Shown: positions 17,397 through 18,849 of the stretch, one piece after another | Layout: every line of letters starts with the position of its first letter | Numbering within the stretch: the first letter of the stretch is position 1 | Source: Bacteroidota bacterium | GTDB lineage: Bacteria; Bacteroidota; Bacteroidia; UKL13-3 | DNA: 35,908 nucleotides | Assembly: GCA_947485745.1 (NCBI GenBank) | Contig: CANKQY010000019.1 | Coordinates: 1-35,908 of the forward strand | Direction of reading: 5' to 3' | Program-made: the position numbers and the translations under genes | The notes under the pieces: model-generated | Database searches by the model: none | What the model saw: only the letters and a program-made list of their open reading frames with translations | What the model was told of the DNA's origin: nothing

Positions 17397-18650
17397 CTAT
17401 TTGATTTTAAATGCTTTTTTAACAGCATCAACCATGTCTAATTTTTCCCAAGTAAATAACTCAACTTTAAATGAGTGATCTTTACCATCTGGTCCTTTAA
17501 ACTTCTTGGTTACAACTTCATTTTTACGACCCATGTGCCCGTAAGCAGCGGTTTCGCTATAGATAGGATTACGTAATTTCAAACGAGTTTCGATACCATA
17601 AGGGGTCATATCGAATAATTTTTCTACCACCTTAGCAATTTGACCATCTGTCATTTTTACTTTAGCAGTACCATAAGTTTCGATGAAAATACCCATTGGA
17701 TCTTTTACGCCAATTGCATAAGATACCTGTACCAATACTTCGGTACAAACGCCAGCAGCTACTAAGTTTTTAGCAATGTGACGGGTTGCGTATGCAGCAG
17801 AACGGTCAACCTTTGAAGGATCTTTACCAGAGAAAGCACCCCCACCGTGTGCACCCTTACCGCCATAGGTATCAACAATGATTTTACGACCAGTTAAACC
17901 AGTATCGCCGTGCGGACCACCAATTACAAACTTACCTGTTGGGTTGATATGGTAGGTAATTTTATCGTTGAACAAATGGGCGAATTTTTTGTATTTGGTT
18001 TTTACGCGAGGGATTAAAATCTTAACGATATCCTCTTTGATTTTAGCCAACATTTTAGGCTCTTTATCAAAATCATCGTGCTGAGTTGAAAGCACAATAG
18101 CTTCAATGCGAACTGGGTTATTATTGTCATCATACTCTAGCGTAACCTGGCTTTTAGCATCTGGGCGTAAGTATTTAATTGCTTTGTTCTCGCGACGTAA
18201 GGCAGCAAGTTCAATTAATATTTTGTGGGCTAAATCTAAAGCCAAAGGCATGTAGTCTGCCGTTTCATTGGTAGCATAACCAAACATCATACCTTGATCG
18301 CCGGCACCTTGATCTTGCTTTTTCTTGCGATCTACGCCTTGGTTAATATCTGCAGATTGCTCATGGATTGCAGAGATGATACCACAAGAATTAGCCTCAA
18401 ACATATATTCGCTTTTGGTATAACCAATTTTGCCAATAACGCCACGCGCAATTTCTTGTACATCTAAGTATGCCTTAGATTTAACTTCACCGGCTAGCAC
18501 AACTAAACCGGTAGTAACAAGTGTTTCACAAGCCACTTTCGACTCTGGGTCAAAGGCTAGGAAATTATCAATTAATGCATCCGATATTTGATCGGCAACT
18601 TTGTCTGGGTGTCCTTCACTAACGGACTCTGACGTGAATAAATAAGCCAT
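17397..18650 (-). CDS. metK: S-adenosylmethionine synthase
   Basis: '[21 protein letters not shown]', '[14 protein letters not shown]', '[21 protein letters not shown]', '[20 protein letters not shown]'. Confidence 0.98.
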
Positions 18651-18739
18651 GTTTTTTTATATGTTTTTTTAATGGTTCAAACTATATGATTAAGCAAACT
18701 TTGAGGATTCTTCGCAGATATTTGGGAACTATATTTGAC

Positions 18740-18819
18740 AAGAAAGTCCGCATTGTTTTACCACCGTGGTGTTCTTCCCGGTTGGCATCCCGCAAGTGTG
18801 CGGGATTCTTAATGCACTG
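18740..18819 (-). ncRNA. Candidate structured RNA in the metK 5' leader (three-way-junction-like)
   Basis: Minus strand: UGCAUU (18816-18811) pairs AAUGCG (18754-18749), enclosing hairpin AUCCCGCA-CACU-UGCGGGAU (18806-18787) and hairpin CCaACCG-GGAAGAACACCA-CGGUGG (18785-18761). Confidence 0.55.
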
Positions 18820-18849
18820 CAAAAGTATTGGAATTTAATAAAAAACAAA
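18820..18849 (-). promoter_or_regulatory. Putative metK promoter
   Basis: Minus strand TTTG (18849-18846), 18-nt spacer, TACTTTTG (18827-18820), matching Bacteroidota -33/-7 consensus. Confidence 0.6.

Follow-up and report, generated by a model that had tools for sequence, protein, structure and literature searches.

The metK leader of a Bacteroidota bacterium very probably carries a SAM-I/IV riboswitch

The leader of metK, the gene whose product makes S-adenosylmethionine (SAM), very probably carries in this genome a SAM-I/IV riboswitch, an already described class, through which SAM would lower metK expression by feedback. A cmscan search of the whole window (the complete stretch of 35,908 nt analysed here) gave a match to RF01725, the SAM-I/IV riboswitch of the SAM clan CL00012, at 18820-18721 on the minus strand, with 56.6 bits against a gathering score of 41.1 and an E-value of 6.8e-07. 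This match covered the full model (1-99), lay 15 bits over gathering and was the only one above any gathering score; those to the hairpin ribozyme, CRISPR-DR22 and RAGATH-7 fell far below gathering and were taken as chance. We filed the element under RF01725 because it shows every structural hallmark of the Rfam family, namely a P2 without internal loop, a SAM-I-like core and PK2 joining the P3 loop to the sequence 3' of P5, together with a score above gathering.

The first-pass annotation had proposed a cis-regulatory RNA with a link to SAM in front of metK, and the above-gathering match with metK downstream supports this reading. It had also implied novelty, having seen no SAM-I core and recognised neither SAM-II nor SMK-box elements; the core letters of the SAM-I type are nevertheless present, and RF01725 is a family already catalogued in Rfam, a match to which the annotation had itself named among the results that would overturn its proposal. 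A new class of RNA, responsive to SAM or to something else, is thus highly improbable: the lack of a SAM-I (RF00162) match at the locus (E 0.001) and of a SAM-II (RF01726) match anywhere in the genome would agree with it, but we ruled it out on the full-length RF01725 match, well over gathering, the core, P5 and PK2 being shared with that family. The features of the riboswitch and of its gene are the following, in the order of the transcript.

18820..18849, minus strand: Bacteroidota-type promoter (sequence; kept in 18 metK leaders; consensus in PMC6847099)
18721..18820, minus strand: SAM-I/IV riboswitch aptamer (RF01725; 56.6 bits, gathering 41.1, model 1-99)
18811..18816, minus strand: P1 5' strand UGCAUU (covariance-model alignment)
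18807..18810, minus strand: J1/2 core AAGA, letters of the SAM pocket (relatives; SAM-I residues in PMC6890682)
18787..18806, minus strand: P2 hairpin AUCCCGCA-CACU-UGCGGGAU (covaries; as many as five standard pair types at a position)
18761..18785, minus strand: P3 hairpin CCAACCG ... CGGUGG (12-nt loop GGAAGAACACCA at 18778-18767)
18771..18774, minus strand: PK2 5' strand GAAC, within the P3 loop (covaries with 18729-18726 across clades)
18749..18754, minus strand: P1 3' strand AAUGCG (covariance-model alignment)
18737..18748, minus strand: P5 hairpin GAC-UUUCUU-GUC (covariance-model alignment, folding)
18726..18729, minus strand: PK2 3' strand GUUC (covaries with the GAAC of the P3 loop)
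17397..18650, minus strand: metK, methionine adenosyltransferase, 417 aa (TIGR01034 equivalog, 520 bits)

The secondary structure drawn in the first-pass annotation was recovered base for base. The pairing of UGCAUU (18816-18811) with AAUGCG (18754-18749) around two hairpins is there at exactly these positions and corresponds to P1, whose outermost pair is U-G. The perfect hairpin AUCCCGCA-CACU-UGCGGGAU is P2, with 8 bp, a 4-nt loop and no internal loop; neither the P2a/P2b arrangement nor the PK-1 of SAM-IV (RF00634) was found in this single short hairpin. The second hairpin, with its purine-rich 12-nt loop, is P3 and also stands, except that its loop is not free, since it holds one half of PK2. 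Only 7 unpaired nt separate P3 from P1, hence there is no P4 helix. A competing PK2 register, GGGAA/UUCCC, exists in the window sequence. The three-way junction placed at the 5' end of the mRNA is also the minimum-energy fold of the 100-nt element (-29 kcal/mol; z -2.47 versus shuffles, with 2 of 200 shuffles equally good).

The pocket letters AAGA, CCAACC and GGUGG are conserved among the relatives. For SAM-I residues 57-59 the match by position relies on what we take to be the native sequence. Eleven of the 13 SAM-I pocket residues given in PMC6890682 are identical by position in the window (A18813, U18812, G18808, A18807, C18784, A18783, A18782, C18781, U18763, G18762, and A18753) and invariant in the relatives. 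The remaining two do not match: SAM-I C8, in P1, is replaced by U18811, and SAM-I C59 by G18761; at the latter the partner has changed as well, G-C becoming C-G relative to the SAM-I/IV sequence of 4L81 printed in PMC5393176. With such a pocket, the aptamer presumably binds SAM.

The start codon of metK (AUG at 18650) lies 70 nt beyond the end of the aptamer, and the linkage to metK recurs in relatives. RF01725 was found in 26 of 98 related genomes, mostly upstream of metK, and in 23 of 64 genomes of the order in a second search that overlapped the 98. Counting the window, 22 collected leaders have metK directly downstream, 54-152 nt beyond the aptamer, and the metK homologues behind these aptamers are close, 90-99% identical where measured. 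Among 31 distinct aptamers from Bacteroidota relatives, both P2 and PK2 covaried. Single positions of P2 took as many as five standard pair types, the first five being paired in 29-31 of the 31, and PK2 shifted in step between clades (GAAC/GUUC, GCUGAAC/GUUUAGC, UUAGAU/AUCUAG, AAAACC/GGUUUU). P1 and P3 were nearly invariant in the relatives.

The class also occurs in other settings. A more distant genome, Emticicia (L061), has SAM-I/IV upstream of metK as well. L003 (G094:C87 4355-4265 and 4203-4111, minus strand) has a tandem pair of SAM-I/IV aptamers separated by 61 nt, an arrangement that may sharpen the response; they precede a metK just 52% identical to that of the window. Six aptamers (L002, L004, L005, L008, L029, and L113) stand before proteins of about 120-140 aa that are not metK and are candidate members of a SAM/methionine regulon; the two searched, from L002 and L029, had no Pfam match. 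Past the aptamer of L024 (G061:C87), the first ORF begins after 56 nt and encodes 197 aa without a Pfam match. The genome of the window itself has, at the end of another contig (G000:C27:12-62, minus strand), a partial match to SAM-I (RF00162) of 31.5 bits. A single full SAM-I element is present at another locus in most genomes of the genus, so that SAM-I and SAM-I/IV coexist.

The promoter reported upstream of metK is present on the minus strand, with TTTG at 18849-18846, an 18-nt spacer and TACTTTTG at 18827-18820. The pattern by itself was not significant (7 matches in the AT-rich window versus 4.7 expected), and we rejected it as stand-alone evidence, its frequency being that expected by chance. 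Its weight comes instead from conservation: across 18 aligned metK leaders TACTTTTG did not vary and the upstream TTTG hardly did, the spacer being variable. Promoters of F. johnsoniae have the form TAHHTTTG, 4-5 nt from the transcription start (PMC6847099). With this spacing the predicted +1 falls near 18815, on the first base of P1 to form a Watson-Crick pair, in agreement with the earlier suggestion of a transcript starting at its first stem.

Under the mechanism we propose, the transcript would start roughly where P1 begins and the aptamer P1-P2-P3-P5, closed by PK2, would bind SAM, which would stabilise P1 and lower metK expression in a feedback loop. With SAM absent, a downstream strand (18713-18689) would pair with the two strands of P1 and with J3/1 and P5, dismantling the aptamer but leaving P2 and P3 folded. 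This strand and the start region of metK complete the leader.

18689..18713, minus strand: candidate anti-aptamer (switching) strand GAAGAAUCCUCAAAGUUUGCUUAAU (colinear complementarity; relatives)
18651..18670, minus strand: A-rich translation initiation region without Shine-Dalgarno sequence (16 of 20 nt are A)

The GAAGAAUCCUCAAAGUUUGCUUAAU strand is colinearly complementary to the P5 5'/P1 3' segment (GGACUUU, UG), to AAAC of J3/1 and to AUUAAG of P1-5'/J1-2. When most leaders were folded freely, the aptamer was replaced by pairing with the 18713-18689 strand and P2 and P3 were retained. Across 17 aligned leaders the alternative pairing had 90.2% of its cells paired, and 94% in the main helix; slid by 1-3 columns in the same alignment, it had 38-56%. 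In all 23 leaders compared, which are related and do not count as independent, the interaction between aptamer and downstream leader exceeded the mean of the shuffles, and no shuffle matched it in L019, L012, L020, L007, and L018. In L007, L023, and L016 the leader paired clearly better with its own aptamer strand than with those of other clades. In the window, the alternative pairing was not significant (z about -1, with a fraction of 0.14-0.17 of the shuffles as good); being weak alone, it leaves the case for a switching strand to the relatives. Within the genus, double changes were seen at 2 pairs of the switching helix, and the aptamer side hardly varies, so that covariation at this level is nearly untestable.

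The downstream complementarity could also be a by-product of a conserved leader sequence, with no switching and an aptamer acting through steric or stability effects. We consider this unlikely; in the window and several members of the genus the pairing is indeed no better than that of 10-20% of the shuffles, but the diverged strands of L007, L012, L019, L020, L016, and L023 still pair as well or better. The alternative pairing holds its register throughout the genus and is readjusted from clade to clade, so that it is probably the SAM-free fold. A different strand, CGGGUAUUCAAUGCAC, was found in the metK leaders of L030, L031, and L114, where it complements the 5' strands of P1 and P2 as well as P1 3'/P5; it appears to be another solution to the same switching problem.

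How the riboswitch would act on metK is less clear-cut. No intrinsic terminator was found in the leader of the window or, with a looser loop limit, in 23 metK leaders, as the first-pass annotation had already remarked for the window. The alternative helix was rejected as a terminator stem (SAM-free OFF) because no U-tract lies behind it and metK would then be switched in the wrong direction. The metK leaders have no Shine-Dalgarno sequence either, and their last 20 nt before the AUG hold 10-16 A. Lacking both signals, we ranked translation initiation first, followed by Rho-dependent termination or decay. Locking the aptamer lowered the accessibility of the start region in 15 of 22 leaders, but the drop was strong in just two of them, L019 and L020, so that it argues weakly for a translational readout; elsewhere the effect was small or reversed, and sequestration of the start codon by the locked aptamer is not claimed. 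A readout through the initiation of translation at the A-rich stretch before the AUG is our tentative model, about which we have slightly more doubt than confidence. The same riboswitch could act instead on transcription, the bound aptamer exposing the leader to Rho or to a nuclease, such that untranslated leader RNA would be terminated or decayed, and the alternative fold protecting it. The missing terminator and the nearly equal accessibility of the start region between states in most leaders agree with this reading, but in L019 and L020 the start is occluded once the aptamer is locked; we regard this reading as rather doubtful.

These results add no new RNA class, and only the expression platform of this lineage is possibly of some interest. 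A rather unlikely reading makes it a distinct Bacteroidota platform, in which one strand, with neither terminator nor Shine-Dalgarno sequence to act on, invades P1 on both sides as well as J3/1 and P5; if true, the readout would work in a new way, through SD-independent translation, Rho or decay. The leader also offers an ordinary, testable model of riboswitch action in bacteria without Shine-Dalgarno sequences.

Among known systems, the window element most resembles SAM-I/IV (RF01725), of which a crystal structure, 4L81, was reportedly obtained by Trausch in 2014. It shares with this class P1, an unbroken P2, P3, P5, PK2 (between the P3 loop and the 3' tail) and the core letters. The 4L81 RNA has a P4 between P3 and P1, whereas the window element has none; the Rfam consensus is without P4 too, so membership of the family does not depend on this helix. 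The expression platform of the window element is specific to its lineage. Relatives of SAM-I and SAM-IV without internal loop in P2 were described from "several phyla, marine" under the name "SAM-I-IV-variant" (Weinberg 2010, PMC2864571). With SAM-I (S-box, RF00162) the element has in common the SAM-pocket letters in J1/2, J2/3, and P3, but it has P5 and PK2 in place of the P2 internal loop/kink-turn, P4 and the SAM-I pseudoknot. The topology of P5 and PK2 is that of SAM-IV (RF00634); unlike SAM-IV, the window has a P2 made of one short helix, thus no P2a/P2b and no PK-1. SAM-II (RF01726) is alike in gene (metK), phylum and approximate position in the leader, whereas its fold is unrelated. It is the usual SAM switch of metK in other Bacteroidota, many lineages of which often have it in the metK leader instead, while metK in the genus studied here is under SAM-I/IV; two unrelated SAM sensors thus do the same job at the same gene.
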